A DNA stretch of 64,000 nt, from assembly GCF_029457495.1 (NCBI RefSeq), contig NZ_CP120363.1, positions 1-64,000 on the forward strand. The letters are read 5' to 3'. The stretch is from Chelativorans sp. AA-79. Its GTDB lineage: Bacteria > Pseudomonadota > Alphaproteobacteria > Rhizobiales > Rhizobiaceae. Both the position numbers and the translations under genes were made by a program. Below, piece by piece: positions 2,221 through 17,878 of the stretch (positions are counted from its first letter, which is position 1; every line of letters begins with the position of its first letter). The notes below the pieces were generated by a model. It did not search any database. It saw nothing but the letters and a program-made list of their open reading frames with translations, and had not been told where the DNA came from.

Positions 2221-2287
2221 GGCGGTCCGCGGGGCGCTCTCTCCTCCGCCGCGGGAACCGCCTCCTCCCGGCCCGCCTCTGCCTCTC
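2221..2287 (-). promoter_or_regulatory. Structured leader E1
   Basis: First of six related elements, each just upstream of a leftward gene. On the sense (minus) strand it starts with a purine box at 2287-2272 (GAGAGGCAGAGGCGGG) and then folds: CCGCGG 2227-2232 pairs with 2249-2254, GGCGGT 2221-2226 pairs with ACCGCC 2257-2262, and the loop carries GGAGGAGAGAG. It ends 30 bases before the start codon of the methyltransferase-helicase. Confidence 0.6.
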
Positions 2288-2372
2288 GACCGCGAGCGCT
2301 CGGCGGCCGACGGTGCTCGCCGGGGGCGTCAATGCCGGGCTCGCACGCGTCGGCGTCTCTCGCGCCGTTGGC

Positions 2373-2402
2373 AAAAAAAGCGCCCCGACGGTCGCCGGGG
2401 CG
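2373..2402 (-). terminator. Intrinsic terminator after ardB
   Basis: Stem CGCCCCG (2381-2387) pairs with CGGGGCG (2396-2402) around an 8-base loop. On the minus strand it is followed directly by seven T (2379-2373). It lies 12 bases past the ardB stop and should end leftward transcription before leader E1. Confidence 0.85.
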
Positions 2403-2413
2403 TGGGGATCGTG

Positions 2414-2836
2414 TCAGTCGATGGCCTGGAAGATCTGCGAGGCTTCCAGATGATCGCCAGCGTAGCTGAATAGCCGATGATAGCCCTCCGCCATGCGACT
2501 GGACTCGAACTTTATGGAGAGGTGCGAGAAGGTGAAGAGGGTGGCGATGATGCCTGCCGCATCCGTCGTCACCTCGCCCGAATAGTCGTTGGTTCGACAA
2601 ATTATGCGATAGCGCGGCTTCTTCGGAGGCACTAGGTAGAGCGGCTTTCCATCGAGCTCGTAAAAGTCCCAGAATCCGCCGCCATAGTCTTCGGGGCTCA
2701 GCCACTCCATCATATAATAGAGCGTATTTTCTGCCATGATGAGGAATTGCAGGCCGAACAGCTCGGGTAGGAATTCGGGACGGCGATCCTCTGGGACAAG
2801 GGTTGCGACACGGGTCTGGGGTTGGGACAGTGACAT
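2414..2836 (-). CDS. ardB: ArdB/KlcA-family antirestriction protein
   Basis: A 140-residue cytoplasmic protein of the ArdB/KlcA family, which blocks type I restriction of incoming plasmid DNA in vivo without a known enzymatic activity. The family signature is clear: a central GGGFWDFYEL stretch (residues 52-61), a YLVPP segment, then TTDAAGIIATLFTFSHLS and a C-terminal IFQAID. The length matches the family norm of about 140. The start at 2836 is the only reasonable ATG, and leader E2 ends 26 bases upstream. An intrinsic terminator follows the stop. The gene sits between the methyltransferase-helicase and a divergent DUF1173 gene, which fits an anti-restriction group at one end of a conjugative element. 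Confidence 0.85.
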   Translation of the reverse strand: MSLSQPQTRVATLVPEDRRPEFLPELFGLQFLIMAENTLYYMMEWLSPEDYGGGFWDFYELDGKPLYLVPPKKPRYRIICRTNDYSGEVTTDAAGIIATLFTFSHLSIKFESSRMAEGYHRLFSYAGDHLEASQIFQAID

Positions 2837-2861
2837 GGGATTTCTCCGGAGAGAGCGGAGT

Positions 2862-2924
2862 GGGGCGAGCCGGCGGCCTCTCTCTCAACCGGACCGGCTG
2901 CCCCGACCCCGCCCTCCTCTCCCT
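2862..2924 (-). promoter_or_regulatory. Structured leader E2
   Basis: Same design as E1. The purine box AGGGAGAGGAGGGC is at 2924-2911 (minus strand). The stem is GGGGC 2862-2866 with GCCCC 2900-2904, AGCCGG 2868-2873 with CCGGCT 2894-2899, and CGG 2874-2876 with CCG 2889-2891. The loop carries GAGAGAGAGG on the minus strand. It lies 26 bases upstream of the ardB start. Confidence 0.6.
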
Positions 2925-3047
2925 TTCCGGCCCGCTCGCACCCGGCGCGCCGAGACGTCGTGCCGTGCCGGCAACCCCTCGGATTTGACGGGTTGCGCAG
3001 CTCGCCTTCGGCGGGTTGGCTGCTGGTTTTCGAAGGGAAGGAGCGCG

Positions 3048-4247
3048 ATGCGCAGATTCGAGATCGGCGGCGTTGTTCTCGATGAGGCCGATCCAGATCT
3101 GACGGCCGCCGTTGCTGCCGCCCATCGCGACCGTGTGCGACCGCTATGTCTGTGCCGCCAGCCGGGCGTTGCGATGTATGTAGCGCGTATCGGCGATCAG
3201 CATGTGATCAAGCGCATGCCGCTGACCGGCGGCCTGCATGATCCGGAATGCGATTCCTATGAACCGCCGCTGGAGTTGTCAGGGCTCGGGCCGCTGATGG
3301 GAAATGCGATCCGACTCGACCCGGAGACCGGTCAGGCGGCGTTACGGCTGGAGTTCAGCCTGTCGCGAACCGGAAGCCGGGCACCGCCGACACCCGGGGC
3401 GTCTGAGGCGAGCTCGGTGAAGAGTGAGGCGCGGCGACTGTCATTGCGGGCGCTGTTGCATTTCCTCTGGAATGAAGCGGGTCTGACCAAGCGGACGTCG
3501 GTCTGGTCGGGCAAGCGGCAGTGGTGGAACCTGCGTTGGCATCTGATCGAGGCCGCCAAGACGATGGTCGTCAAGGGCGCGCCACTGAGCGAGGTCCTGC
3601 TGCTGCCCGAGCCGTTTCGCGCGTCGAGCAAGGCTGCGATCGAGGAGCGGCGAGCGGCCGCCTTGAGAGCGATCCTGCCACAGAAGACCGGGCCGCGACG
3701 GCTCATGGTGCTGGTGGGGGAGATCAAGGAGTTTCAGGCGGCGCGGGGCGGTCACCGGGTCGTCGTCAAGCACATGCCCGGCTTTCCACTGCTGCTCGAC
3801 GACAAGGGCTGGCAGAGTCTCAAGGCGCGCTTCGAGATTGAGCTGGCGCTGTGGAGCGCCAATGATGCTGCCCATCTCGTCGCCATCGCGACCTTCGGGG
3901 TCAACGACGCCGGGCTTGCGGCAATCGAAGAGATCGCCCTGATGATGGTGACAGAGAACTGGATTCCCTATGAATCCGTGCATGAGGAGCGCCTGGTCGG
4001 CGCGCTCGCCAAACTGCGCGAGCAAAGCATCAAGGGCTTGCGTTATGGCCTGCCGTCCGACCAGCCGATGGTCGCAGCGCTGCTCATGCAACGCAAGCCG
4101 AAGCCGCTGGCACTCTATATCGTTCCGGGGAGCGCGGACGATGCCTATGAGGCCGAATTGAACGAGATGGTTGCGGCGCGGCCCGATTTCGACAGCTGGA
4201 TCTGGCGTGTCGCCCAGGGCGACATGCCGCCGCTGCCGGCCCGGTGA
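3048..4247 (+). CDS. DUF1173 family protein, copy 1
   Basis: A 399-residue protein of the DUF1173 family, common on alphaproteobacterial plasmids and integrative elements; its function is not known to me. Near the N terminus it has a conserved metal-ligand-like pattern, C34-x-C36 followed by H64-x3-C68, which suggests a small zinc site. A conserved WWNLRWHLIEAA stretch follows in the middle, and the C terminus reads WRVAQGDMPPLPAR. A second copy at 31314-32510 shares the whole length and the same four putative ligands at identical positions. The start at 3048 is chosen because GGGAAGGAG precedes it at good spacing. It is one of the few rightward genes of the first 18 kb and diverges from ardB. 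Confidence 0.85.
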   Translation: MRRFEIGGVVLDEADPDLTAAVAAAHRDRVRPLCLCRQPGVAMYVARIGDQHVIKRMPLTGGLHDPECDSYEPPLELSGLGPLMGNAIRLDPETGQAALRLEFSLSRTGSRAPPTPGASEASSVKSEARRLSLRALLHFLWNEAGLTKRTSVWSGKRQWWNLRWHLIEAAKTMVVKGAPLSEVLLLPEPFRASSKAAIEERRAAALRAILPQKTGPRRLMVLVGEIKEFQAARGGHRVVVKHMPGFPLLLDDKGWQSLKARFEIELALWSANDAAHLVAIATFGVNDAGLAAIEEIALMMVTENWIPYESVHEERLVGALAKLREQSIKGLRYGLPSDQPMVAALLMQRKPKPLALYIVPGSADDAYEAELNEMVAARPDFDSWIWRVAQGDMPPLPAR

Positions 4248-4253
4248 CCCCGG

Positions 4254-4556
4254 TCAGGCCGTTGCCTTGGATTGCTCCCACACATCGGGGCGCCAGAACG
4301 CGATGAGCTTTTCGATCTCGGCGCGATATTCGACCGGGTGCTCGGCATTGGAGAGATTGGCCATGTGGGAAAAGACCGTCGCCATATCCTGGGCAATAGC
4401 GCGGTCGAGGGTGAACACGTCGGTGATGTCGAACCGACCGAGGCTGTAGGGATTCCACCAGGCGAGGATGAAATCGGCGACCCGGCGCGCCTGTCCGGTG
4501 TCGCTGTGCGCGATCGTAAGGAGGCGCTCGAACGCCGCGCGTGTCCGCTGGTCCAT
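4254..4556 (-). CDS. Small conserved protein, DUF7673-like
   Basis: A 100-residue soluble protein resembling a small family I know as DUF7673, found on rhizobial plasmids; the family name is recalled, not checked. It is mostly helical by composition, with a conserved-looking AFERLLTIAHSDTGQARRVADFILAWW-type N-terminal half. The start at 4556 is preferred over an upstream ATG at 4586 because GGAGGTGG lies five bases before it. It runs convergently with the DUF1173 gene (6-base gap) and follows the 4590-5489 gene by 33 bases, so the two leftward genes are probably cotranscribed. No function can be given. Confidence 0.65.
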   Translation of the reverse strand: MDQRTRAAFERLLTIAHSDTGQARRVADFILAWWNPYSLGRFDITDVFTLDRAIAQDMATVFSHMANLSNAEHPVEYRAEIEKLIAFWRPDVWEQSKATA

Positions 4557-4589
4557 GATCCACCTCCCGGGCCATATAGTATTCACAGA

Positions 4590-5489
4590 CTATTGTCTGC
4601 TGCGAAGCGTGTCGAGCACGGATGTGAGGAAGATTTCCGGCTGGCCGTGCCGTTCCGGGCCGTGAATGGTCCAGTCGAGATTCTCGACGAGCGCCGGTAT
4701 GAACTCGAAGTCGTAGGACCAGAAACCGGCATCGATCTCGTCACTGAGATCGGTATGGACGTCGAGGGCGAAGTCCGCGATCTGAATGGCGTAGCGACGC
4801 ATGCTGACCGAGCCCAATTCCTCCCAGACCGTCATCATCGCGCGAATGCCAGGCTTTCGTGCGGGGTTGTCGTCATGGGCGGCTCGAAGATCGAGCATTG
4901 CTTCCCAGACGCACAGAGCGGTTTCGAGCAGCTGCGGTGACGATGCTGCTGCATCGGGTTTGGCAATGGTCCCGTCGTTGTCCTCTGCGTCGGATTGCAG
5001 CTCGTCCAACATGTCGGTCGTGGATTTTCCGGAAATCGTCTCCGCGGTGATCAGGGTCACGGCGCCGCCGAAGCCGTCGGGCCGCATCTTGCTGCAGGTA
5101 AAGGACGTGGTGACGACGATTTCGTCGAGTGCCGTCGAGCGCCGGACGATATCCTGGAGAATGAACGCCCAGGATGTCCCAGACATATCAATGTCGAGAT
5201 ATTGGTCCTGTGGGCCGCCCTCGAGGTTCGCCTGGTCGAGCTTTCCGGTGAGATAGGTCTTTGCCGTGCTGGGGGACGGATCGTCGGATGTCTCGATTGC
5301 GGAGGCCAATTCTCCGCGATCGAGGCTGATCGTGTCGTTTGGTCCTGTCTCGCTGAAGAGGTAAATACAGCGGCCATCTGTATCGATTTCGCTATCAAAG
5401 ACGGCCTCCAGAACCAGCAGTTCAAGGGCGGTTATAGCGGCAAGCGGAATGAGTGGCGTTACCACCGTTGGAGAATGATAGTCGGCCAT
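4590..5489 (-). CDS. Conserved hypothetical protein, 299 aa
   Basis: I do not recognise this 299-residue protein. It has no signal peptide and no convincing membrane helix apart from a mildly hydrophobic N terminus (LIPLAAITALELLVLEAVF, about residues 13-31). The middle (about residues 150-190) is acidic and low in complexity, and the last 110 residues look like a compact helical domain rich in Trp and Asp. Codon use matches the neighbours. AAAGGA precedes the start at 5489. A GC hairpin (5512-5532) separates it from the DUF6117-like gene upstream. Its place among plasmid-type small genes suggests a mobile-element accessory role, but nothing more specific can be supported. Confidence 0.6.
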   Translation of the reverse strand: MADYHSPTVVTPLIPLAAITALELLVLEAVFDSEIDTDGRCIYLFSETGPNDTISLDRGELASAIETSDDPSPSTAKTYLTGKLDQANLEGGPQDQYLDIDMSGTSWAFILQDIVRRSTALDEIVVTTSFTCSKMRPDGFGGAVTLITAETISGKSTTDMLDELQSDAEDNDGTIAKPDAAASSPQLLETALCVWEAMLDLRAAHDDNPARKPGIRAMMTVWEELGSVSMRRYAIQIADFALDVHTDLSDEIDAGFWSYDFEFIPALVENLDWTIHGPERHGQPEIFLTSVLDTLRSRQ

Positions 5490-5511
5490 TGCTTGTTCCT
5501 TTGAACAGCGA

Positions 5512-5532
5512 AGCCCGGCGCGAGGCCGGGCT
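5512..5532 (-). terminator. Intergenic GC hairpin
   Basis: AGCCCGGC (5512-5519) pairs with GCCGGGCT (5525-5532) around a five-base loop, with possible outer pairing of GAACAG and CTGTTC. It lies between two leftward genes, just before the Shine-Dalgarno of the second. It lacks a strong T run, so it may pause or process RNA rather than terminate. Confidence 0.5.
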
Positions 5533-5555
5533 GTTCGCGGTTTGAGTTGGAGGGT

Positions 5556-5822
5556 TCAGTTCGTGTCGGCGGGCGCCGTCGCCGGCAGGAAGCCGGTGGG
5601 ATCGTCAGGATCTGGCGGGAGATAGGCATCGTAGGGGTTGCCATCGGCCAGGTGGCCGAAGGGCGTCATCACAATGTCAGAGCCGTCGCGCCCGACGGCG
5701 CAGATCACGTAGCAGATCTCACCGCATTGCGCGTCGAGGCATTCCATGAGCGCCAGATTGCCGTCTCCGGCGGCGCGCAGAAGCGTGTGGAAATTGGCGC
5801 GGGCGTGGTCGGGAATGGCCAT
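5556..5822 (-). CDS. DUF6117-like small protein
   Basis: An 88-residue protein close to a small family I recall as DUF6117, recurrent on rhizobial plasmids, of unknown function. Seen in the sequence are the N terminus MAIPDHARANFHTLLRAA, a central YVICAVGRDGSDIVMTPFG strand-rich segment and an acidic Pro-rich tail (DPDDPTGFLP). The start at 5822 is preceded by GGAGGAGAATGAG, a strong site. Only one base separates it from the stop of the 5824-6498 gene, so the two are almost certainly coupled. A downstream hairpin at 5512-5532 closes the pair. Confidence 0.7.
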   Translation of the reverse strand: MAIPDHARANFHTLLRAAGDGNLALMECLDAQCGEICYVICAVGRDGSDIVMTPFGHLADGNPYDAYLPPDPDDPTGFLPATAPADTN

Positions 5823-5823
5823 C

Positions 5824-6498
5824 TCATTCTCCTCCAGCGGTGGGGCCCGTCGCAATCCGATGATGACGGCGGAGCGCAACGAGACCTGTCTGGAACGTGG
5901 CGTTCCAGACTTCTCGTGACAGGTCGGTCGAGGCGGCGGTCTCCTTGCAGGCCAAATGAATATCCTGGTCGCTGACATCATCTGCGCGAAGGTCGCCGAA
6001 CTCGGCACGATGATCGTGAACGATCCCGGGCAGCATCTCTCGGACCCGGGTTTCATCGATCGCGGCAATCACGTGCGGGAAGCGCGGAGCGTCATCCTCC
6101 GAGGTGGGACCCCTGGCCCCGTCGAGGATGGCGTGAGCAAGAGCGATCGCCCAATTGGCCTTGGTAAGCCATTCCGGCGTGGTCGGCCGGCTCGCCTGCG
6201 CGTCGGCCACGATGATCTTGAGCAGTCCGAGCAGAAGCTCGAAATGACCGGCCTTGCGTTGCACGGTTTCATCGAAGTGGGGAGGCACGGTGATGGCGTC
6301 GCCCCAATATGCGGCGTCCGTGCCAGACCAGATGCCGGTCACATAGGTTTCACCGGCACACTCATAGTCCTGTTTGCCCTCGTCCCAATCCTCATCCTCG
6401 ATCGCCAGGCGACAGGCCGCCTCCGGGGTCTCGGCGGAATAGGTCCCGTGCCGATAGATCGGCAGGCGGTAGGTCGTTTCTATGGTGAAGTTCGGCAT
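5824..6498 (-). CDS. Conserved hypothetical protein, 224 aa
   Basis: A 224-residue soluble protein whose first 70 residues (MPNFTIETTYRLPIYRHGTY...) form a recurrent beta-rich unit of rhizobial plasmid proteins; I think it belongs with DUF5983-type proteins but am not sure. The region after residue 90 is helical and contains a LLLGLLKIIVADAQA segment. The start at 6498 is chosen over an in-frame upstream ATG (6786) because AAGGAG precedes it and the upstream extension is basic, low-complexity and overlaps the DUF3085 gene. It follows a good terminator (6524-6546), so it may have its own promoter or depend on readthrough. No catalytic motif was seen. Confidence 0.65.
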   Translation of the reverse strand: MPNFTIETTYRLPIYRHGTYSAETPEAACRLAIEDEDWDEGKQDYECAGETYVTGIWSGTDAAYWGDAITVPPHFDETVQRKAGHFELLLGLLKIIVADAQASRPTTPEWLTKANWAIALAHAILDGARGPTSEDDAPRFPHVIAAIDETRVREMLPGIVHDHRAEFGDLRADDVSDQDIHLACKETAASTDLSREVWNATFQTGLVALRRHHRIATGPTAGGE

Positions 6499-6523
6499 GG
6501 CTGAATCTCCTTGGTGGAAATGC

Positions 6524-6546
6524 AAAAGCCCCGCGCGAGGCGGGGC
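6524..6546 (-). terminator. Intrinsic terminator after DUF3085 gene
   Basis: GCCCCGC (6528-6534) pairs with GCGGGGC (6540-6546), followed on the minus strand by TTTT (6527-6524). It sits 25 bases upstream of the next start codon, a pattern repeated several times in this run. Confidence 0.75.
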
Positions 6547-6550
6547 GGCG

Positions 6551-6952
6551 TCAGGGTTTGGCGACAACGGCGATGAAGACGCTGCTGGCGCTGAGATCGA
6601 TGCGCAGATGGGTTGCGTCTGGGCGCTTATCGGCCAGGATGAGAATTTCATCGGCGGCGAGAAAGACGACGTCATCGTCGCCGCCGAAGTGATGCGCCTT
6701 GTAGTCGTACCAATCCGGGTCGATGTTCGGATTGCACTGGTCGGCATAGACGACCATGGCCCGGTCGCCTTCGGCGATATGGCCATTGGACATCACATAG
6801 ACTCCATGATCGCCGACCAGCCAAAGGCCTGGCTCCTCGTCCTTGCCGGGAGCCAGACCGAAATGGGGATTGCGGTAGCCGCCATTGACGCGTGCATCGG
6901 CCTGACCACGCGCGATAACGGCGCGCACCGCAGAAAGCGGGAACGTGAACAT
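6551..6952 (-). CDS. DUF3085 family protein
   Basis: A 133-residue protein of the DUF3085 type, a small family of plasmid-borne proteins of unknown function. It opens with MFTFPLSAVRAVIARGQADARV, has the motif GLWLVGDHGVYVMSNG (about residues 43-58) and ends in a RPDATHLRIDLS strand pair. The length is close to the family norm. GAGGAAA lies before the start at 6952. It is followed within four bases by the terminator at 6524-6546. It lies in the leftward run between the DUF1281 gene and the 224-residue gene; its partners and role are unknown. Confidence 0.7.
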   Translation of the reverse strand: MFTFPLSAVRAVIARGQADARVNGGYRNPHFGLAPGKDEEPGLWLVGDHGVYVMSNGHIAEGDRAMVVYADQCNPNIDPDWYDYKAHHFGGDDDVVFLAADEILILADKRPDATHLRIDLSASSVFIAVVAKP

Positions 6953-7027
6953 GATGGTTTCCTCTGGTGAGGGACGCGAGGATGAGCCGGGTGGGCCCGG
7001 CTGAGGGCGATCCAGCCGCGGCTTGTG

Positions 7028-7759
7028 TCAGTCTTCGGCGGGGGCCGGACGAGCGTAGACCTGCTGGTAAAGCGCCTCGGACGCCTCGACATATTCGCCA
7101 AGATAATGACCGTTGCGGATCGATCCGACGAAGGCAAAATTCCAGCCTTCATCAAACCCGTGGACGGTGATCGTCAGGCCATGAGCTTCGGGCCGGCCGG
7201 CGAGTGCGGCAAAGATGGGTTCAGGCGAGGACCAGGCGGTGTTGAAGAGGAATTCAAGGCGGTCATCCCCGTCGCTGACCATCTCGAAATCGTAGGAGTT
7301 CCACTTGGTGCCCCAATGGGCGAGCGACCAGCTGTACCACGACGTGTGGCCATAGTTGTCGTAGGCCTCGACGGCGTGCCTGGCCTTTTCCAGGCAGCCG
7401 GGACTGCGTGCGAGCAGGAGGCTCTTGAGGCCTTCGAAATCGGTCACGCCGGCTTCCCTGACCCAGGCATAGGACAGATAGAGATCGAGCTGCTCCTGCC
7501 AGGTTCTCGCCAGGCCGAAATCGTCGCGAATAGCGGGGCGGCCGAGAATGAGCAGCCCGTCGGACACGGTCGAGCTGCTCTCGGTGTTCCGGATGGCTTC
7601 GGGCATCGGCACAAGAACCTCGAAGTCCAGACGGGTGAATTCGCGGTCGACGCCGTCGTCGTCCCGGTCTCTGGTCGTGACGATGAAGGTGTTCTTGAAT
7701 TGGGCGACCGTCTCGGCCGGGCCGGTGATGACGACGCGATGGGTGACATGATTGGGCAT
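7028..7759 (-). CDS. DUF1281 (Api92-like ferredoxin-fold) protein
   Basis: A 243-residue protein of the DUF1281/Api92-like family, named after a protein of phage APSE and spread on phages and conjugative elements. It begins MPNHVTHRVVITGPAETVAQF, the usual start of the family, and contains the typical LAHWGTKWNSYDFE motif (about residues 146-159) and a GWNFAFVGSIRNG-type C-terminal segment. Family members have a ferredoxin-like fold; no enzymatic role is established to my knowledge. The start at 7759 is set by homology of the N terminus and lies 28 bases from leader E3. The gene is the only one between E3 and the DUF3085 gene. Confidence 0.75.
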   Translation of the reverse strand: MPNHVTHRVVITGPAETVAQFKNTFIVTTRDRDDDGVDREFTRLDFEVLVPMPEAIRNTESSSTVSDGLLILGRPAIRDDFGLARTWQEQLDLYLSYAWVREAGVTDFEGLKSLLLARSPGCLEKARHAVEAYDNYGHTSWYSWSLAHWGTKWNSYDFEMVSDGDDRLEFLFNTAWSSPEPIFAALAGRPEAHGLTITVHGFDEGWNFAFVGSIRNGHYLGEYVEASEALYQQVYARPAPAED

Positions 7760-7786
7760 AGTGGTGCTCCGCGAGGGTTGAGGGAA

Positions 7787-7849
7787 CGGGCGCGCGGCGG
7801 CCTCTCCCCGACCGGCCGCAGCCCGCCCCTCCCCGGCCCTCCTCTCCCT
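7787..7849 (-). promoter_or_regulatory. Structured leader E3
   Basis: Purine box AGGGAGAGGAGGGC at 7849-7836 (minus strand), identical in sequence to that of E2. The stem is CGGGC 7787-7791 with GCCCG 7821-7825 and GCGGC 7794-7798 with GCCGC 7815-7819; the loop carries GGGGAGAGG. It ends 28 bases before the DUF1281 start codon. Confidence 0.55.
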
Positions 7850-7938
7850 CGACACGACGCAGGCGCGCGCTGCCGCGCGCGGGAGCGGCATGCTGGCGTT
7901 GCTATGGCGACTGGTGGGGAATGCGTGAGGCTAGCGCA

Positions 7939-8373
7939 TTATGGACGCTCGACGTCGTAGCGAGGATCGCACCCGTCCTCGCCGGGGAACTTGCCGTTTG
8001 GGTCACAAACCATGACCTGGAGCACGCCGTAGGTCTCATGCCCGAAATATTGGCCCGCCTGTATGGTGAAACGGCTGCGGGCAGCCGGACCGGCAATGCG
8101 CATCTTGACCGGCACCGACCATCCGATGTCGACCAGGCCCAGTGCAAGGGGACGGCCGTCCTCGCGCATCTTCGCGCCAAGATCATTGAGCAGAGCCGCG
8201 CTGATATGGGCCGGAAAGTCGCCGATCATCAGAAGTTCGGGCAGGCCGTGCTCGGCATTACCGATGGTGTAGGTGAAGCCGGAGGTCTCGGCATCGCCGA
8301 AGACCTGGAACAGGTGCTGGCCGAAGGCTTCGATATTCTGCCGGACTTGACGCATCTTGCCGGGCGGTGTCAT
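7939..8373 (-). CDS. DUF4262 domain protein
   Basis: A 144-residue protein of the DUF4262 family. The family core is visible as GFTYTIGNAEHGLPELLMIG (about residues 32-51) followed by a helix with LLNDLGAKM, and a C-terminal HETYGVLQVMVCDPNG. The family is widespread in bacteria and of unknown function. The start overlaps the stop of the DUF1419 gene by four bases (ATGA, 8370-8373), so its translation is coupled to that gene. About 90 bases of GC-rich DNA and leader E3 separate it from the next gene downstream. Confidence 0.75.
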   Translation of the reverse strand: MTPPGKMRQVRQNIEAFGQHLFQVFGDAETSGFTYTIGNAEHGLPELLMIGDFPAHISAALLNDLGAKMREDGRPLALGLVDIGWSVPVKMRIAGPAARSRFTIQAGQYFGHETYGVLQVMVCDPNGKFPGEDGCDPRYDVERP

Positions 8374-9638: not shown

Positions 9639-10127
9639 TCAGAACTCGTAATTAAAGTTGTTCGAAGCGCTGTAGCGCTCGTTGTAGTCGAGCGTGACCG
9701 TGCGGCTGGCGACATCGAAGACGAATTCACCGTCGGCGCCGTCATTAATTTCCCAGCCCGCATGCGTTCGCTCCAGGAAGTCGTAGGCCATCGATTCGAT
9801 TGCCTCTGCGAGCGACATGGCCTTGCTTACGGGTTTGGTGCTGCCCGACTGGGCAAGGGTGAGCGTCACCGACAGATCGGGAAGGTCGACTTTATCATCG
9901 CCAGCCCTGGCTTCGATTTCCTCGATCTGGCCGCTGTCGCCATAGCCGTCGAAGGTGACGACGACCTGCGAAACGCCATTGGTCGAAAGTGCGTCAAACA
10001 GGACCGCCTTGTTGGCGGGATCGAGCCGGGCGGCCAGCTCACGATACTCGGCTTCCTCCCTGAGATATCGGGCGACAAAGTCGTCAACTTGGGTGTAGGC
10101 CGGCGCATCCTTGTCGGGGTTGGACAT
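9639..10127 (-). CDS. DUF6878 family protein
   Basis: A 162-residue acidic protein of a family I know as DUF6878. Its signatures are FDGYGDSGQIEEIEAR (about residues 60-75), an AIESMAYDFLERTHAGWEIN helix-turn segment and a FVFDVASRTVTLDYNERY strand pair. The function is unknown. The start at 10127 has AGGAGA seven bases upstream. Leader E4, the best-formed of the series, ends 21 bases before the start. The stop is eight bases from the start of the frameshifted DUF6915 gene, so both are probably in one transcript. A distant relative with the same G-x-GDSG and W-x-N patterns is at 34370-34831. Confidence 0.75.
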   Translation of the reverse strand: MSNPDKDAPAYTQVDDFVARYLREEAEYRELAARLDPANKAVLFDALSTNGVSQVVVTFDGYGDSGQIEEIEARAGDDKVDLPDLSVTLTLAQSGSTKPVSKAMSLAEAIESMAYDFLERTHAGWEINDGADGEFVFDVASRTVTLDYNERYSASNNFNYEF

Positions 10128-10147
10128 GGTCAATCTCCTATAAGCTT

Positions 10148-10220
10148 GAGGGGGCGAGCCCGTGGCCCTCTCTCTCGACGCCACGCAGACTCGCCCCCTC
10201 GCCGGCCCTCTTCTGCCTCC
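10148..10220 (-). promoter_or_regulatory. Structured leader E4 (best-formed copy)
   Basis: Purine box GGAGGCAGAAGAGGGC at 10220-10205 (minus strand). The outer stem is a perfect 11 bp: 10148-10158 (GAGGGGGCGAG) with 10190-10200. The inner stem CGTGGC 10161-10166 pairs perfectly with GCCACG 10180-10185. The loop reads GTCGAGAGAGAGG on the minus strand. It ends 21 bases before the DUF6878 start. Confidence 0.7.
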
Positions 10221-10237
10221 TCGGTTGCGCAGCTGTT

Positions 10238-11295: not shown

Positions 11296-11312
11296 GATGA
11301 TCTCCATGAAAG

Positions 11313-11849: not shown

Positions 11850-11876
11850 ACTGTTCTCCTTGTCCGGAAATGAGAA

Positions 11877-11900
11877 AGGCCCGGCGCTGTGGCCGGGCCT
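11877..11900 (-). terminator. Intrinsic terminator after parB-like gene
   Basis: AGGCCCGGC (11877-11885) pairs perfectly with GCCGGGCCT (11892-11900), and the minus-strand 3' side continues TTCTC. It lies 24 bases after the ParB-family stop and 28 bases before the next start. Confidence 0.75.
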
Positions 11901-11924
11901 CGGGGTGGTTGGTGGAAACAGCCG

Positions 11925-14018
11925 TTACTCGGCCGCCTGCATCGTCTCGGCAGGATCGGCGCTATCGTCCTGCTCGGCGCCGTCGCTCAGATAGGCTGGG
12001 AGCTCGGCACTCTCATCGATGATGTCCGCATCGGCATCCTGCGGCGCATCGACGTCAACAAGATCATCGAGCCGGAGCACCTCGGGAAGCCAGCCGGTGC
12101 CGTTGAGCACACGGGCAGCTTCGGTCACCATCTTCGCCTTGGGCTGATCTTCCATGAGGTAGGCCTGCTCTTCGCCGCATGCTTCCCGGACGGCTTCAAG
12201 GATGCGCCGCTTGGTCACCCGGGCGAGATAGGATTCCGGCGTGGGCTGCCATCCCGCTTCCGCCATGTCGAAGCCGATCGTGCGCGCGATCTCGTCGGCA
12301 TGGGCGATCGCGCCCGGGCGCTTGGCCCACGGTTCGATGACCGCGTTGAGTCCCTGCACGGCGCAATGGCCGAACAGCGCCTGCCGGCTGGCAGGATCGA
12401 GAGCGAGGAGGAACGGCCAGAGATCGTCGGGAGACTTGGGCAGGTCCTTGCCCCAGTTCTCGTGCCGCTGATCGATCTCCTTGGCCCAGATGCTCTGGCC
12501 TAACCCTTCAACCTGACCGAAACTGGCATTCTTCACCGTCAGGCCGATGCAGGTGTCGGACGTGTTGTGGAAGAATACCTGCAGCACGAGGGCGTGCAGG
12601 ACCGCGACGTAGGCGGTGTCGGGGTCCTGGGCCAGGGCATTGCGCAGCGCCAATGTCCGATGGGCGGTGAGGTCGAGGATGAGCCGGTCCGGCAATGGCC
12701 GGATCGTGTCTTCCTCGTCGTCGCCAGACGACACTGCGGCGCCATTGGCGCCGGGCCGTTCACCGACATTGCGGTCGCCGTCGGCATGGCCGGCGGCAGC
12801 CTCAACATCAGCAACGTCTTCGTCGACCGGCGCCTCGTCCTCGGAACGAACGAAGCCACGCTCAATGCGAAGCTCGCCATTAGCATCGAGGGTAACGAAG
12901 GCGCCGGCCCGGGCGACCTCGTCCGGATCGTAGATGTCGGGCCGGTCGTTGAAGACATCGATCGCATCGCCAAGCGTTGCGAGCTTCTTTTCGGTCTCCT
13001 CGTCATAGTCCGGCGACTCGGCATATTCGGCGTCGAGCTTTTCATACTCTTCCTGCAGCGCGTCCTGCCGGGCGAGCTCTTCTTCGCTCAGTTCGGCCGG
13101 TTCACCATAGACGCGGCGCATGCCCGAGGTGTGGCCGTAGCCGAAGTCGATGGCCGAGACGACCCACTTCCAGCCTTCGGCCCGGACCGCCTCGGCATCC
13201 GCCTCGAGCTTGTCGAGCACCAGCTTTTCGAGCAGCGCCGGGTCCTGGAACCACCCGCCGCCATCCTGCTGGAAGAGGTCGCGCAGGATGATGCCGCCGG
13301 CCGCTTCATATGCGGCGGCGCCGATATAGACCGCGCGGCGATCATCGGCGCGAACCGCGGTCTCGGTGAGCAGCCGCTTGATGTAATACGGCTCCTGCAC
13401 CGTCGAGCGCGACACGGTGGCCCAGACGTCTTCCTGCCGGGCATGGTCGGACGTGATGGAAAACGCCTTGACCTGCTCGAGCTTGAGCTCTCCCTTGCCA
13501 TAGAGATCGAGGAGCTTGGGCGAGACGTCGGCGAGACGCAGGCGCTGCTTGACCGTCGCCGGCGCCACCTTGTAGCGGGCAGCGATTTCCTCCTCGCCGA
13601 GCCCCTGGTCGAAGAGAACCTTGAAGGCCCGGAACTCATCAAGCGGATGCAGGGTTTCGCGCGCCATGTTCTCGGCGAGCGAGTCATCATCGGCCGAGGT
13701 CGTCTCCTTGCGGTTGACGATGCAGGGCGTCGGCTGGTCCTTCGCCATGCGCTTCTGCTTGATGAGTATGCCGAGAGCGAGAAAGCGCCTGCCGCCAGCG
13801 GGCACCTCATACTGCCCGGTCTCCTCGCCGTTCTCGTCGCGCAAGGGGCGGACGTTGAGGCTCTGGATGAGCCCGCCGCGTAGCGCAATATCCTCGGCAA
13901 GATCCTCGATCGTCACGCCGTCCTTGATGCGTCGGACGTTCTTCTGGGAGAGCACCAGTCTGTCGTAGGGGATGTTCTCCGACTGGTTCAGAGAGATTTT
14001 CGGTGTGGCCTTCGCCAT
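11925..14018 (-). CDS. ParB/RepB/Spo0J family protein, orphan, 697 aa
   Basis: A 697-residue ParB-family protein, much longer than a chromosomal ParB (about 290). The N-terminal ParB/Srx-like domain shows NVRRIKDGVTIEDLAEDIA (residues about 27-45), a PAGGRRFLALGIL motif corresponding to the GERRxRA box of ParB, and ENMARETLHPLDEFRAF. A helix-turn-helix follows (EEEIAARYKVAPATVKQRLR). The rest is a long acidic region with an Asp/Glu-rich middle and no recognised domain. No parA lies beside it, so plasmid partition is unlikely. Similar long orphan ParB-like proteins are common in accessory regions of rhizobial plasmids, often beside anti-restriction genes. The start at 14018 lies 13 bases from leader E5; GGAG is the Shine-Dalgarno. 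Confidence 0.85.
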   Translation of the reverse strand: MAKATPKISLNQSENIPYDRLVLSQKNVRRIKDGVTIEDLAEDIALRGGLIQSLNVRPLRDENGEETGQYEVPAGGRRFLALGILIKQKRMAKDQPTPCIVNRKETTSADDDSLAENMARETLHPLDEFRAFKVLFDQGLGEEEIAARYKVAPATVKQRLRLADVSPKLLDLYGKGELKLEQVKAFSITSDHARQEDVWATVSRSTVQEPYYIKRLLTETAVRADDRRAVYIGAAAYEAAGGIILRDLFQQDGGGWFQDPALLEKLVLDKLEADAEAVRAEGWKWVVSAIDFGYGHTSGMRRVYGEPAELSEEELARQDALQEEYEKLDAEYAESPDYDEETEKKLATLGDAIDVFNDRPDIYDPDEVARAGAFVTLDANGELRIERGFVRSEDEAPVDEDVADVEAAAGHADGDRNVGERPGANGAAVSSGDDEEDTIRPLPDRLILDLTAHRTLALRNALAQDPDTAYVAVLHALVLQVFFHNTSDTCIGLTVKNASFGQVEGLGQSIWAKEIDQRHENWGKDLPKSPDDLWPFLLALDPASRQALFGHCAVQGLNAVIEPWAKRPGAIAHADEIARTIGFDMAEAGWQPTPESYLARVTKRRILEAVREACGEEQAYLMEDQPKAKMVTEAARVLNGTGWLPEVLRLDDLVDVDAPQDADADIIDESAELPAYLSDGAEQDDSADPAETMQAAE

Positions 14019-14030
14019 GGTGAGTTACTC

Positions 14031-14106
14031 CGCGACGGAGCGGTTCGGAGCCTCTCTCCGGACCTCCAACCCCGTCGCGAAGCCCCCTCGCCCGCCTCTT
14101 CCTCTC
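14031..14106 (-). promoter_or_regulatory. Structured leader E5
   Basis: Purine box GAGAGGAAGAGGCGGG at 14106-14091 (minus strand). CGCGACGG 14031-14038 pairs perfectly with CCGTCGCG 14072-14079, and GGTTCGGA 14042-14049 pairs with TCCGGACC 14057-14064 (one G-T). The loop is GAGAGGC on the minus strand. The Shine-Dalgarno GGAG of the ParB-family gene abuts the base of the outer stem. Confidence 0.65.
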
Positions 14107-14184
14107 GGGCGCCGGCCTCTCCGCAGCTCCAGCGGCGCCGGCTGGCCACCGGCGCGGGCGCCGATCGCGGTCGAGCTGCGGCCG

Positions 14185-14385
14185 TTAGCCGGCATCATTG
14201 ATCTTGACCTGCCCGACATGCCGCAGCGCCTCGACCATGTGCGCATGGTCCATGAGAATGTGGATGAGGGCGTCGCGCGCTACCGCGACCGTCTTGCTGG
14301 TGCTGCGGGTCCGGTCGTGACGTTCATGGAGGTGCTCGAACTCCTCCATCGTGGTGTAGAGCTCGATCAAGGGACGCGCGCTCAT
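14185..14385 (-). CDS. Small hypothetical protein, 66 aa
   Basis: A 66-residue mostly helical protein (MSARPLIELYTTMEEFEHLH, then DALIHILMDHAHMVEALRHV). I do not recognise it. It is supported by an ATGA overlap of four bases with the stop of the upstream gene (14382-14385), the usual sign of translational coupling, and by codon use like its neighbours. His and Glu are abundant, but no clear metal motif is present. Downstream lies leader E5 of the ParB-family gene. Confidence 0.55.
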   Translation of the reverse strand: MSARPLIELYTTMEEFEHLHERHDRTRSTSKTVAVARDALIHILMDHAHMVEALRHVGQVKINDAG

Positions 14386-14789
14386 GACCCCGGTTCCTCG
14401 CTGCGCCGATCACCCGGCGGCTGGATGCCGGGGACGTTCCAGACCTCGGCGCCAGCTTCGGCATAGTTGCGCGCAATTGCCTGCAATGACGCGAATGACA
14501 GGCTATGCAATGGCTTGGGGTCTGGGTCTCGGCCCACGGCGATCATCGGTCCACGAATGGCGAGTTCGGCAACGGCGTCGAATGGCGCGGCCAGGCTGTC
14601 GATGACAGGCAGGCCGGCTGCGATACACTCGGCCTTGATGGGCTCGATATCGTATCCGGATAGACGGGCGCTGTTGCCATAGTGAAGCGTGAAGCCGCCG
14701 CGCCCGATACTGAGGTGGCCGCCGGCCGTATTCAATGCGGCGTTGATGTCGTGCTTGTAGCGGGAGGGGCTTGGCTGGTGGATGGTCAT
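14382..14789 (-). CDS. Conserved hypothetical protein, 135 aa
   Basis: A 135-residue soluble protein with no family I can name. It starts MTIHQPSPSRYKHDINAALN, has a Gly-rich strand region (GGHLSIGRGGFTLHYG, about residues 23-38) and a C-terminal stretch ending EVWNVPGIQPPGDRRSEE. It is translationally coupled to the 66-residue gene that follows. Upstream (14797-14842) the DNA resembles leader E6 in its stem sequence (GACGG 14803-14807 with CCGTC 14838-14842) but lacks the purine box, so this may be a decayed leader. The Mom-like gene ends 104 bases upstream, behind a terminator-like hairpin. Confidence 0.55.
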   Translation of the reverse strand: MTIHQPSPSRYKHDINAALNTAGGHLSIGRGGFTLHYGNSARLSGYDIEPIKAECIAAGLPVIDSLAAPFDAVAELAIRGPMIAVGRDPDPKPLHSLSFASLQAIARNYAEAGAEVWNVPGIQPPGDRRSEEPGS

Positions 14790-14848
14790 GACAATTCTCC
14801 GCGACGGCCGGCCGGGATGTCCTCGACCTCATCAAACCGTCACGGCGA

Positions 14849-14875
14849 AAAGCCGCCCCCTGGTGAGGGACGGCC
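14849..14875 (-). terminator. Terminator-like hairpin after the Mom-like gene
   Basis: An imperfect GC stem (GCCGCCCC around 14853-14860 with GGGACGGC around 14868-14875) is followed on the minus strand by TTTT (14852-14849). It closes the ArdC-to-Mom-like operon. Confidence 0.55.
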
Positions 14876-14893
14876 ATTCGGTCTCGGGTTGTG

Positions 14894-15400
14894 TCAGGGC
14901 TGGGCGCGGCGATTTCGCAGGCCGGCATCGTCGCACCAGCCCCAGATAACCTTGCTGCGACCCTGCCTTGCCGTTCGCTTGTCGACGCCACTACGTGAAC
15001 GGCCAATCATCATCCAGCCGTCGAAGCGGTAGAGGTTTCCGGTATGCACAAGAGCATCCTGGTAGCTGACAGCCCAGCCATATCCGCCTTCCGCGCAGAT
15101 CGCCGGAAAGACGAAGGCGCGCCAAAGGCGCAAGGCGACGCGGGACAGGTCCGGTCGCGCTGCAGCAAGGCGGGACAGTTCGATGGCCTCGGTCCGGTCG
15201 AACCCAGCCACTCGCTCGCGGATCAGCCGGTCGGTCGCCACAACGGCGACCGGAACATCGCCGTGAAACAGACCATGCGACCAGCCATGGTTCGGTAGCC
15301 GAACCGGGCCCATGCGATGTTCCCACTCCATCAGGAGCAGATTGAGATCGGACCGTTGGATCGTCCGGAAACAGACCTCGGAAAAGCGGGCGCTAGACAC
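14894..15400 (-). CDS. Mom-like GNAT-fold putative DNA modification protein
   Basis: A 168-residue protein with the layout of Mom-like acetyltransferase-fold proteins. Phage Mu Mom converts adenine in DNA to N6-methylcarbamoyl adenine. Seen here are a VAVVATDR strand, EAIELSRLAAARPDLSRVAL (about residues 74-93), GWAVSYQDALVHTGNLYRF and a GWMMIGRS segment, matching the ELSRL ... SY ... G-x-(I/L)YR ... W order that I associate with the family. This is pattern-level homology, so the function is inferred. The proposed start is GTG 15400, overlapping the upstream stop by eight bases; ATG 15331 is an alternative. It is the last gene of the ArdC-DUF6884-PP-loop operon and is followed by a terminator-like hairpin. 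Confidence 0.55.
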   Translation of the reverse strand: MSSARFSEVCFRTIQRSDLNLLLMEWEHRMGPVRLPNHGWSHGLFHGDVPVAVVATDRLIRERVAGFDRTEAIELSRLAAARPDLSRVALRLWRAFVFPAICAEGGYGWAVSYQDALVHTGNLYRFDGWMMIGRSRSGVDKRTARQGRSKVIWGWCDDAGLRNRRAQP

Positions 15401-16310
15401 CGCACATGCCTTCGCATTCGAGAGGCCAGAGGTCGAGCTGCCCGCTGTCGTCGGACAGGTCGGCCTGATCGAGCGGGACGCAGGATCGATGGAGATAGAG
15501 CTCGGCGCGCATGCCGCGGAAGCCCGTTCGAATACTGCGATCTGCCTCAACGGCGTCGGCCCATCCGGCCGGGTCCTCATCGCGGATCTGACGCCAGCGG
15601 GCATTCGAATGGAACGGACAGCCGAGGCACGCACTTTTCGGGGGGATCGGATAGCCGTGCTGGCGCAACCAGATCAGACAATCGGAGCGGCTCATCCGCT
15701 TTTCGAGCAAGGGCCAGCGATTGACCTGCCAGGCCTGAAAGCTCGGCTTCATCCGAATCGCCTCGTCGGTCGAGATCCCGATCCACTGTTCGACGACGGG
15801 GTAGCCGGGCGCGCGCAGGCCGGAGAGACCGGCCAGAATACGAACATGGCGTCGGATTGGCTCGAGCTTATACTCGGTCGTGCATTGCCTCGTGATCATG
15901 CCGATCGCGACCTCGTCGCGCGCGAGAACACGCTGGCCTACCGGCCGCTTCTCGCCATCAGCGTCCTCTTCGTAGTGGACGATGCGCGTGCCCGCCGGGG
16001 TGACCGTCCGCGTGAAGGCAGGGATGGACGCCCAGCGTTCGCCGCGTGCGCCCCGCAGGAGACCGTCCCGGATATTGCCGGCCGAGACGACATGGATGGC
16101 AAACGGCAGGACATTGTCCGATGCCAGCCATTGCAGGTGCTCATAGACGCGGGCCGGCTCCCATCCGGTGTCGGCAAATACGGCGAGATCGGGCATGGGT
16201 GTCACCTCGCCGTGAGCGGCCATCAGCGCCAGCGTGGTCGATTGCACGCCGGCGCCGAGACTGAGGACGCGCAGCCGTATCCGATCGATATCGTAGGAGG
16301 GGGTCAGCAT
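15393..16310 (-). CDS. PP-loop ATPase of the PAPS-reductase superfamily
   Basis: A 305-residue adenine-nucleotide alpha hydrolase of the PAPS-reductase/PP-loop group. The PP-loop LSLGAGVQS is at residues 17-24, and FADTGWEPARVYEHL, typical of the group, is at about 45-59. Cysteines C143 (in RQCTTEYKL), C211, C228 and C231 (CLGC) could hold an Fe-S cluster as in DndC and TtcA-like enzymes; further Cys are at 277, 299 and 303. Members activate a base, carbonyl or phosphate by adenylation, often in DNA or tRNA modification. The start at 16310 overlaps the stop of the DUF6884-like gene by seven bases. Position between a DUF6884-like and a Mom-like gene, directly under ArdC, argues for nucleic-acid modification rather than sulfate assimilation. 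Confidence 0.8.
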   Translation of the reverse strand: MLTPSYDIDRIRLRVLSLGAGVQSTTLALMAAHGEVTPMPDLAVFADTGWEPARVYEHLQWLASDNVLPFAIHVVSAGNIRDGLLRGARGERWASIPAFTRTVTPAGTRIVHYEEDADGEKRPVGQRVLARDEVAIGMITRQCTTEYKLEPIRRHVRILAGLSGLRAPGYPVVEQWIGISTDEAIRMKPSFQAWQVNRWPLLEKRMSRSDCLIWLRQHGYPIPPKSACLGCPFHSNARWRQIRDEDPAGWADAVEADRSIRTGFRGMRAELYLHRSCVPLDQADLSDDSGQLDLWPLECEGMCGV

Positions 16311-16878
16311 GGCCGCTTCCCCCGAATCGGTTCCTTGAGCCAGGTGGCCATGCGCTGACGCATGATGCCGATCGGCCCGGTGATCTGGATAACCCTGGCG
16401 TCTTCGGCAACGCATCCCATGCGCTGGAATCCGGTAACGAAGGCGCGCCCATGACCTCGACATAGAGGGCGCCCCCGACCAGGGCGACGTCGCGGAACGG
16501 CACCTTTCCGCCGCGTATGAGAGACAAGGACGCAATCTCGGCGCCCGGGTGCATGCCGCAATTGTCTGGCCGGTTCGGCGATGGCGGCCGGGGCCAGCGT
16601 GTGATCATGCCGCCGGCGATCATGCGGTCGGCGAGCTCGCGAGTCAGTCGGGCGTCGTAGTTCTCGATCGGCGTGTCGTCGCCGCGGAAACCGAAACGGG
16701 CGGACAGGAAGCCGACCTTGGCGAGATCGCCGTTCGGATCGGTGACGCGCAAGGTACGCCAGAGCGGTCCGTCATAGCGCTCACGAGCCGGGATCCGGCC
16801 AGGATCAGGGCGCTTTCTGGCCGAACAGGCGAGAATGAGCAGTCGGTAGTCGCGAAGGTGCGGAGCCGTGTCCATCAT
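16304..16878 (-). pseudogene. DUF6884-like gene with frameshift
   Basis: Two frames together encode a protein of about 190 residues. From 16878 it reads MMDTAPHLRDYRLLILACSA, with CSARKRPDPGRIPARERYDG and a FLSARFGF motif, the pattern of DUF6884/YaaA-like proteins of phages and mobile elements. After VEVMG the frame changes at the C run 16448-16450. With one added base it continues RAFVTGFQRMGCVAEDARVI to the stop at 16304. GGAGGTGG precedes the start, which overlaps the ArdC stop by four bases. DUF6884 relatives are suspected base- or nucleoside-processing enzymes, but I know of no proven activity. The lesion may be a sequencing error, since everything else in the operon is intact. Confidence 0.6.
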
Positions 16879-17792
16879 GCCACCTCCGGGTGCAACATTT
16901 GGGCGGTCGCACTGTCGGGCTGGCTTGCGCGCATCCAGTCCGCGGCCGCCTGGGCTTGACCGGCGGCGGCGAAGATTGCGCGGGGATCCTTCTGAAGAGC
17001 GTCGATCCAGCTGGCGACATAAGCGGCGTGGTCGGGGCGAGGCTGGAAGGCAAGACCGAGGTCGGCCAGAATGAAAGCGGCCGTTAGTTCGGCAACGATT
17101 TCTTCCATGGCCGCAGCTCGAGTCGAAAACCGCTTCTCGAGGTTTCGGTCGAGCCGGTGCTTCGCCCCCGTGGCATGCCCTGCCTCATGAAAGAGGACGC
17201 CGTAGAATGCCAGGGGATCGACGAATGCCGAGAAGGGCGGCATGAAGATGCGATCGTCGGAGGGACGATAGAAGGCGGACGCCGCGTCGAACCGGGCCGG
17301 GATCCGCAGAGCGTTGAAGAACGCATCGGCATGCCGGATCCGCTCGGCCTCGTCGAGGCGAGGGATCTCCTCGTCCTCGAAGCCGTCAACCTGGCAGCGA
17401 TTGAACACGGTGTAGCCGCGTCCGAACATCCGCGGACGGCCGTGCGCCGGCACAGAGTCACCGTCGGTTGCGCTCTCGTTCTCGTCGGTTGAAGCCAGCC
17501 GCCAGAATATGATGGTCGTGCCGCGCTCGCCCTGCCGGACCTGCGCGCCACGTGCAGTCCACTGGCGGTATGTGCCCCAGATGCCGCTTGTGAAGCCTGC
17601 CGTTTCGGCGGCTGCCCACAGAACGAGAATATTGGCGCCACGATAGCCCCTGCCGCTGGCAATGTTGGTCGGCCGCGTCGTGACGGAACCGTCATGATGC
17701 CATGGCATTCGGAAAGTCTCGGCACCGCGCTCGATCGCGGCGACGATCTGGTTGGTGATGCGCTCATAGATGCTTGCGCGCTCGTCGGTCAT
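16875..17792 (-). CDS. ardC: ArdC-like antirestriction protein, zincin metallopeptidase
   Basis: A 305-residue ArdC-family protein. The N-terminal half (MTDERASIYERITNQIVAAI, PWHHDG, GYRGANILVLW) is the ssDNA-binding ArdC N-terminal domain, and the C-terminal half is a zincin with the catalytic HEAGHATG (about residues 202-209) followed by a downstream EEIVAELTAAF helix that supplies the third zinc ligand. ArdC of plasmid pSA binds single-stranded DNA and protects incoming DNA from restriction. The start at 17792 has GGAG upstream, and leader E6 precedes it by 13 bases. Its stop overlaps the start of the DUF6884-like gene, so it heads a four-gene operon that ends with the Mom-like gene. Confidence 0.9.
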   Translation of the reverse strand: MTDERASIYERITNQIVAAIERGAETFRMPWHHDGSVTTRPTNIASGRGYRGANILVLWAAAETAGFTSGIWGTYRQWTARGAQVRQGERGTTIIFWRLASTDENESATDGDSVPAHGRPRMFGRGYTVFNRCQVDGFEDEEIPRLDEAERIRHADAFFNALRIPARFDAASAFYRPSDDRIFMPPFSAFVDPLAFYGVLFHEAGHATGAKHRLDRNLEKRFSTRAAAMEEIVAELTAAFILADLGLAFQPRPDHAAYVASWIDALQKDPRAIFAAAGQAQAAADWMRASQPDSATAQMLHPEVA

Positions 17793-17804
17793 GGTGGGAA
17801 CTCC

Positions 17805-17878
17805 GCGACGGGCGGCCGGAAGCCTCTCCTCCAGCCCTCCTCCCGTCACGGCTCCCGGCCGCGACCTCTGCCTCTTGG
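17805..17878 (-). promoter_or_regulatory. Structured leader E6
   Basis: Purine box AAGAGGCAGAGGTCG at about 17876-17862 (minus strand). Two pairings are possible: GACGGG 17807-17812 with CCCGTC 17842-17847, and CGGCCGG 17813-17819 with CCGGCCG 17855-17861. If both form together they make a pseudoknot. The loop carries GGAGGAGAGGC. The ardC Shine-Dalgarno GGAG abuts the stem. Confidence 0.55.

Follow-up and report, generated by a model that had tools for sequence, protein, structure and literature searches.

AGAG leaders, a widespread family of hairpin leaders before entry genes of plasmids and integrated elements in Alphaproteobacteria, with a probable role in translation

The stretch of DNA analysed here, called the window, comprises bases 1-64000 of plasmid C3 of Chelativorans sp. 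AA-79 (219,481 bp, carrying a relaxase gene), in a genome that also has a 5.3-Mb chromosome. An earlier note on this DNA had described six structured leaders, E1 to E6, on the minus strand of the window, in front of a methylase-helicase gene, an ardB gene, a DUF1281-like gene, a DUF6878 gene, a ParB-like gene and an ardC-like gene, and all six were located there. Judging from sequence comparison, these leaders, here named AGAG leaders, are real and widespread; they stand before entry genes on plasmids and integrated elements of Alphaproteobacteria. They probably represent a mobile family of cis-acting RNAs of the 5' untranslated region (5' UTR) that control the translation of establishment genes. 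The comparison across genomes establishes their structure, the strand that folds, their position and the genes with which they are associated.

The layout common to E1-E6 consists of an AGAGnnAGAG-type box, a hairpin with an AGAG-type loop, a Shine-Dalgarno sequence and an ATG, with a conserved part of 85-100 nt that forms one hairpin. A pattern check agrees with the earlier description: AGAGGnAGAGG has exact matches in E1, E5 and E6, while the boxes of E2-E4 fit it more loosely. The exact boxes begin 95 (E1), 87 (E5) and 83 nt (E6) upstream of the ATG, compared with the 85-97 bases or so first proposed. The six had been taken as one family. They are indeed related, but they fall into two subtypes, type I (E5 and E6) and type II (E1-E4), to which a seventh, decayed copy (E7) has to be added.

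Recognition of the leaders beyond chance

Single-sequence folding energy does not decide whether the leaders are more than chance; comparison across genomes does. Against 200 shuffles, E2 (z = -3.40), E4 (-3.45) and E5 (-3.37) fold better than every shuffled sequence, while E6 (z = -1.84, 8/200 shuffles folding as well), E1 (-1.45, 16/200) and E3 (-0.75, 42/200) are unexceptional on their own, so that folding energy alone was rejected as proof. The latter three would fit chance GC-rich pairing, or a leader simply inherited with its gene, an explanation that is scarcely credible in view of what follows. A model of the type II leaders (R3) was built from 31 copies, none of them in the window, although the close relatives L015 and L016 contributed copies that correspond to E1 and E2. 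Its six best matches in the 64 kb are exactly E1 (E = 1.3e-10), E2 (1.4e-10), E4 (4.1e-6), E3 (3.3e-4), E5 (0.0024) and E6 (0.014), and the seventh-ranked match (E = 0.89) is noise. This ranking and the covariation found on both alignments described below speak against chance, and the presence of the same element before unrelated gene families, as well as on pNL1, a MOBF plasmid and thus of another transfer type, speaks against plain inheritance. The two subtypes are distinct enough that the type I model (R1), trained on E5, E6 and five homologs that precede ParB-like genes, seven leaders in all, matches E1-E4 at noise level only (8.1-13.9 bits, E 0.21-8.3).

AGAGGnAGAGG occurs 12 times in the 5.76-Mb genome, compared with 70 occurrences of the reversed pattern, and three of the 12 are the boxes of E1, E5 and E6. 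In a set of 14 stretches, namely the plasmid plus 13 pieces of chromosome 80 kb long, 34 of the 42 occurrences of AGAGnnAGAG on the coding strand coincide with leaders or leader-like matches.

Spread across genomes and the genes behind type I leaders

On the chromosome that accompanies the plasmid, R1 found eight further strong copies (E 3.3e-12 to 8.0e-9). Six of these were inspected; three precede ParB-like genes (one of them broken), two ArdC-like genes and one a 185-aa gene of unknown function. The broken ParB-like frame lies behind the leader at 1.4476 Mb of the chromosome (C1), on which three relaxase-bearing elements with AGAG leaders are seen at about 2.43, 4.25 and 5.06 Mb. At E <= 0.001, R1 matches 72 of the 297 genomes sampled from the order (69 of the 283 of high quality, and 38 of 118 genera), 23/289 genomes of a draw from the class and 31/299 of a draw from the phylum, these draws overlapping and each counting the genome under study. 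All 31 matching genomes of the phylum draw belong to the same class, the number of genomes drawn from other classes not being stated. Further hits, like covariation, whose lack the earlier note had named as telling against the family, were thus both found.

At E <= 1e-4, R1 gives 124 matches in 86 loci, counting the loci of the best matches only. A sufficiently long frame follows the GGAG within the inspected range in 105 of 119 distinct type I leaders; the other 14 have no long frame in that range, several of them lying at a locus end or before a broken frame. The start codon lies 7-9 nt past the GGAG in 100 of the 105, and it is ATG in 102. Grouped by BLAST, the downstream genes are ParB-like (53), ArdC-like (31), DUF932-like (19) or other (2), where the name DUF932 is taken from the annotation of one plasmid and a representative matches Pfam DUF932 only below the cut-off.

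Eleven named plasmids were also searched, with model R2. Clear matches were obtained in MesoLj131b2 and pRL7, both of which had supplied training copies, and in pNL1 from Novosphingobium, where the match ends 32 nt before an ArdC match that begins at residue 5. Those on pSymA and pMLa reach only E 0.27-0.9, and there was no match on p42a, p42d, pAtC58, pNGR234a, F or R388, with none at E <= 1 on F and R388.

Two further observations concern the surroundings of the leaders. A leader-like match precedes a 162-aa gene, of unassigned function and similar in two genomes, at L124 8518-8596 (-) and L121 14918-14996 (-). In addition, a three-hairpin block of about 90 nt (GGGGAAAGCCUUCCCC ... CCCCUUCUGCGGGGAGACCCCGCAACGCCCC) stands directly upstream of the AGAG box in L030, L053, L069, L076 and others. 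A loose pattern for this block fits at the box or close to it in 22 of 104 type I leaders, 16 of them with both halves, and at least one of these fits (E6) looks accidental. The block is possibly an extended leader, or else an origin of transfer (oriT) or single-strand element of integrative elements.

Structure and folded strand of type I leaders

The type I consensus is made up of an AGAGknAGAG box, a spacer, UUYCGUGACGG, a bulge GUUGGAGG, an inner stem with the loop AGAGG, and CCCGUCRYGGAG. In a model-fitted alignment of the 119 distinct sequences, 95.4% of the cells pair, compared with 88.9 +/- 0.3% after shuffling (0 of 500 shuffles as high) and 38-51% when the two sides are slid against each other. 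Changes on both sides are found in 14 of the 20 pairs, that is in 9/9 pairs of the inner stem and 5/11 of the outer stem. As this alignment had been fitted to the model, the count was repeated with a tree on 113 leaders that MAFFT had aligned by sequence alone. Pairing is kept there in 39 of 52 double changes, as against 3-11 of 23-48 in slid controls, mean pairing is 0.94 versus 0.38-0.50, and single changes from a pair keep the pairing in 140 cases and break it in 78.

The kind of change tells the strands apart. On the MAFFT alignment, 80 changes lead from a Watson-Crick pair to G-U and 29 to A-C (68 versus 24 without the four Shine-Dalgarno pairs), and 41 and 21 to other mismatches; unpaired columns show 126 and 143 changes of the matching kinds. 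The model-fitted alignment holds 359 G-U and 33 A-C cells, where shuffling gives 417 and 109. G-U is thus tolerated and A-C avoided, which identifies the mRNA-sense strand as the one that is kept folded.

Type II leaders

The second subtype emerged from weak R2 matches near type I leaders elsewhere, and precedes methylase-helicase, ardB and DUF6878 genes, the methylase-helicase being its main neighbour. Its alignment (A5) keeps 31 of the 45 weak matches inspected, namely those on the leader strand or in the window. The matches dropped were five window copies, two counterparts of E7, two before the 162-aa gene, one of DUF932 type, one that was truncated and three without the layout. The selection was not blind, as the downstream gene was used in it. 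Outside its training set, R3 has six matches with E below 1e-6, among them the copy dropped as truncated (L143), and a methylase-helicase was confirmed behind L146, the sole one of the six that was checked.

RNAalifold finds 11 pairs on the MAFFT alignment of type II leaders, 8 of them changed on both sides. The loop GAGAGAG(CG) is complementary to the tail over at least 6 nt in 30 of 31 methylase-helicase leaders and in 4 of 4 ardB leaders, counts that include the window copies, the methylase-helicase leader L017 being without a scorable loop. The complementary stretch is too invariant for covariation analysis. It would be compatible with a pseudoknot adjoining the Shine-Dalgarno sequence, which is possible, and in the minimum-energy fold of E2 the tail pairs with the box instead.

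Probable control of translation and its alternatives

Control of translation initiation by the AGAG leaders is likely. The GGAG at the base of the type I stem stands opposite UUYC, and its mean unpaired probability is 0.17 (n = 113), compared with 0.32 in the control genes (38 of the set of 44, namely those with a Shine-Dalgarno-like site). Of the two readings that the earlier note had offered, the riboregulator has gained from the covariation on the sequence-only alignment, the wobble bias of the sense strand, the fixed distance between Shine-Dalgarno sequence and start, and the pairing of the Shine-Dalgarno sequence in type I. This sequence abuts the stem in E5 and E6, as it had also seen, or falls inside it.

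In the mechanism that we propose, transcription would pass through the leader, which presents in order the AGAGknAGAG box, a hairpin showing AGAGG or GAGAGAG in its loop, the Shine-Dalgarno sequence and the start codon. The resting leader would be poorly translated. In type I (ParB-like, ArdC and DUF932-like genes) the Shine-Dalgarno sequence itself would be the base of the stem, and in most type II leaders (methylase-helicase and ardB) a CUCUC tail beside it would pair with the GAGAG of the loop, as a pseudoknot, or with the box. Opening might depend on a conserved host factor with affinity for the AGAG motifs, or on ribosome standby at the purine box. Going by the genes behind the leaders, it is plausible that expression would be timed to entry into the recipient.

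A number of results weigh against translational control. The leaders were gathered by means of a covariance model which itself favours G-U over A-C, so that the strand test may be inflated. Accessibility overlaps with the controls, values below 0.2 being found in 71 of 113 leaders and 12 of 38 control genes, and the outermost Shine-Dalgarno pair is G-U in 67 of 118 type I leaders. In type II, covariation is weak on the MAFFT alignment (term -0.34), and tail complementarity is found in 0 of 4 DUF6878 and 0 of 1 DUF1281 leaders, so that occlusion of the Shine-Dalgarno sequence is not common to all type II leaders. The 110 nt preceding the box were inspected in 98 leaders for a promoter at a fixed distance, and none was seen; one at varying distance would escape such a search. 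Transcription through the leader is therefore assumed. The search for a partner, described below, gave none. Finally, the outer stem UGACGG/CCGUC is almost invariant, which a DNA operator could also account for.

Such an operator, or another transcriptional element, would consist of the box and the inverted repeat UGACGG...CCGUC, bound as double-stranded DNA by a shared regulator, or would act by antitermination or pausing. The box, like the outer stem, is nearly invariant, and a single repressor acting across several establishment promoters is a known design, described for p576 in the part of the source consulted (PMC8708921). Covariation of the inner stem and the tolerance of G-U speak against it, and an operator is therefore unlikely.

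Folding of the sense strand would equally fit a structure in single-stranded DNA (ssDNA) of that strand, with a role in transfer such as priming of the complementary strand or protection of the strand that enters. For pLS20, the available part of PMC8708921 gives the non-template strand as the one transferred. A role of this kind would hardly explain why the leaders are locked to start codons at 7-9 nt and to few gene families, why there are several copies per element, or why the Shine-Dalgarno columns pair in most type I copies, and we regard it as quite improbable.

The other reading in the earlier note, a single-strand promoter like Frpo/ssi, in which a hairpin of the transferred strand lets RNA polymerase start on ssDNA, did not hold up and is very unlikely. 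The entry and anti-defence genes do point to a relaxase gene, both on the plasmid and in three elements of the chromosome, which is the orientation that such a promoter requires if oriT lies there. TTGACA-like sequences (<= 2 mismatches) are present in 109 of 113 stems and in 89 of 113 shuffled ones, a point for a promoter and to that extent against translational control, although these matches are common because UGACGG is conserved. TATAAT (<= 2 mismatches), on the other hand, is depleted, occurring in 5 of 113 type I hairpins versus 46 of 113 when each was shuffled once. A single-strand promoter requires a folded template strand, whereas it is the sense strand that stays folded. Since the Shine-Dalgarno sequence lies at or in the hairpin, the start of transcription must be placed upstream of the hairpin and not below it, and stems of about 20-25 bp would look too short to hold everything from -35 to +1.

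Search for a partner

If the AGAG leaders control translation, a factor that reads them might be expected, and CsrA, ProQ/FinO, DUF736, the gene content of the elements and a CTCTnnCTCT antisense were considered. CsrA and ProQ/FinO were rejected as general partners, being encoded in 2 and 1 of 40 element-bearing genomes, respectively, and DUF736, present in 34 of the 40, was rejected as an obligatory one. For an element-encoded regulator, gene content was compared among the 14 stretches, with four of them as reference and families in at least 9 of 14 considered; no small gene common to all 14 was seen. The ParB-like gene alone, beside leaders, reached 13 of 14 (with three references) or all 14 (with G351), in stretches that had been picked with a model trained mostly on ParB leaders. 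The CTCTnnCTCT antisense had no position common to the elements.

Concerted evolution of leaders within elements was not detected overall: in 27 pairs the value was 0.667, the same as after permutation (0.667, with 1054 of 2000 permutations as high). By segment, the bulge is more alike within elements than when permuted (0 of 500) and the loop less so (500 of 500). That leaders are no more alike within than across elements argues against a fast co-evolving, element-specific partner, and the partner is thus probably not a fast-evolving product of each element. We tentatively raise the possibility that a single RNA code, made of the AGAG box and loop and read by a conserved host factor, could serve as a translation-level entry switch for anti-defence and establishment genes of plasmids and integrative elements across Alphaproteobacteria and different transfer types, by which these proteins would appear in the recipient in time, with no need of single-strand promoters.

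The leaders and genes of the window

The type II leader E1 (2192..2289, minus strand, as are all the leaders and genes of this and the next paragraph) has its box at 2276-2286, followed by a hairpin, the purine loop GAGGAGAGAGCG and the tail GCUCUCC, with the start codon at 2191. The R3 match covers 2189-2289 (63.4 bits). It precedes the N-terminal part (1..2191) of a methylase-helicase of strawberry-notch type with the Pfam domains AAA_34 and ResIII, MTS being just under the cut-off; the rest apparently continues at C3:217248-219443, where Helicase_C_4 is matched. E2, likewise of type II (2837..2929, R3 63.2 bits), with the loop GAGAGAGAGG and the tail CGCUCUCUCC, stands before an antirestriction gene of the ardB/klcA type (2414..2836; PF03230, E = 5.9e-34). 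E3 (7760..7854, R3 30.1 bits) and E4 (10128..10223, R3 40.0 bits) are type II leaders without the CUCUC tail. The former precedes the DUF1281-like gene (7028..7759), whose DUF1281_C match of 21.5 bits is under the cut-off of 22.8, and the latter the DUF6878 gene (9639..10127; PF21798, E = 2.3e-53).

In the type I leader E5 (14019..14108; R1 92.7 bits as a training copy), the Shine-Dalgarno GGAG pairs with CUUC at the base of the stem. The gene behind it is ParB-like (11925..14018; HTH_ParB, E = 7.7e-7), and is 95% identical to that of a Mesorhizobium relative and 78% to that of a Chelativorans relative; a like element stands in front of its homologs in 7 of 7 loci inspected, L019 being left out. 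E6, the other type I leader (17793..17878; R1 64.3 bits, also a training copy), precedes the ardC-like gene (16875..17792), which carries the Pfam domains ArdcN and MPTase-PolyVal. The name DUF1281 given in the earlier note needs the qualification that its Pfam match stays below the cut-off. E7, the decayed type I leader (14790..14866, with the copy placed at 14794-14866; R1 21.3 bits, E = 0.0021; R2 29.6 bits, E = 2.5e-5; z = -3.28), retains the outer stem and the Shine-Dalgarno sequence, its box and AGAGG loop being degenerate; counterparts of it are present in L015 and L016. The small gene that follows (14382..14789) went unmatched in Pfam at E <= 0.001.

Genetic setting on mobile elements

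The module on the plasmid runs from ardC toward a relaxase gene on the same strand (C3:206377-208866), which matches PF03432 with E = 1.1e-7 and is not among the matches of the genome search with that family. The chromosome has three relaxase matches, each on the strand of a leader cluster and about 19-28 kb downstream of it. Among the 14 stretches, the downstream genes in the same direction include a relaxase in 10, TraG in 11 and Trb-like transfer genes, these names being our own reading; nearly all of the transfer genes are missing in G351 and G789, and several in G714. The module is bordered, on the side of ardC, by a gene for a regulator of the ROS/MucR type (18668-19192, plus strand).

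DNA polymerase III alpha- and ImuB-type genes (20749-25754, minus strand) adjoin the module. Umu-like genes flank many anti-defence islands, as reported in the part of PMC11541004 consulted. The link of the leaders to genes of conjugative entry, proposed in the earlier note, fits the gene families, the relaxase gene downstream on the same strand and these polymerase genes of the translesion kind.

Comparison with known systems

Rfam 15 gave no match at gathering score in the window, and the four matches at E up to 5 within 1500-19000 do not lie on leaders. A full-text literature search, whose scope did not extend to preprints and most subscription papers, found no description of AGAG leaders among the papers listed. 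The leaders flag ParB-like, DUF932-like, DUF6878, DUF1281-like and methylase-helicase genes as candidates for roles in establishment or anti-defence. With a defined candidate RNA family present in roughly one in four of the genomes sampled from the order, the question of timing can be tested directly.

Targets of CsrA/Rsm are translational leader RNAs with a masked Shine-Dalgarno sequence. The AGAG leaders resemble them in having a hairpin with purine motifs in the loop near the ribosome binding site (for the Rsm motif, see the part available of PMC9928087). They differ in that CsrA is so rare in the element-bearing genomes, as noted above, and that no Rfam match falls on them.

Timed expression of anti-defence genes, with their silencing afterwards, is known for few systems, namely the single-strand promoters of F and ColIb-P9 and the repressor of p576 (PMC8708921, PMC11541004, both in part). 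For Alphaproteobacteria, no such mechanism is offered in the portions consulted of these papers and of the other literature, and the consulted part of the Rhizobium etli noncoding RNA data (PMC2881028) held nothing usable. Frpo/ssi of F and ColIb-P9 are likewise hairpins, set in the leading region in front of anti-restriction and related genes, as far as the available part of PMC11541004 goes. Unlike them, the AGAG leaders have no -10 in the hairpin, it is their sense strand that folds, and the Shine-Dalgarno sequence lies at or in the stem.

By analogy, the nearest described system is EGeRS1 of the Bacillus plasmid pLS20 and its relatives. According to the part of PMC8708921 consulted, EGeRS1 comprises conserved structured sequences before several establishment operons, ardC included, whose mechanism and RNA or ssDNA nature are undecided there, the authors arguing against a single-strand promoter. 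The AGAG leaders are also repeated before several establishment genes including ardC. The EGeRS1 sequences, as portrayed in that part of the source, are multibranched, 400-600 bp long and from Bacillus, whereas the AGAG leaders measure 85-100 nt, have one hairpin and a box, and belong to Alphaproteobacteria, in another phylum. Unlike EGeRS1, as far as that account extends, the AGAG leaders come with evolutionary evidence, from covariation and from the strand test, for folding of the sense strand.

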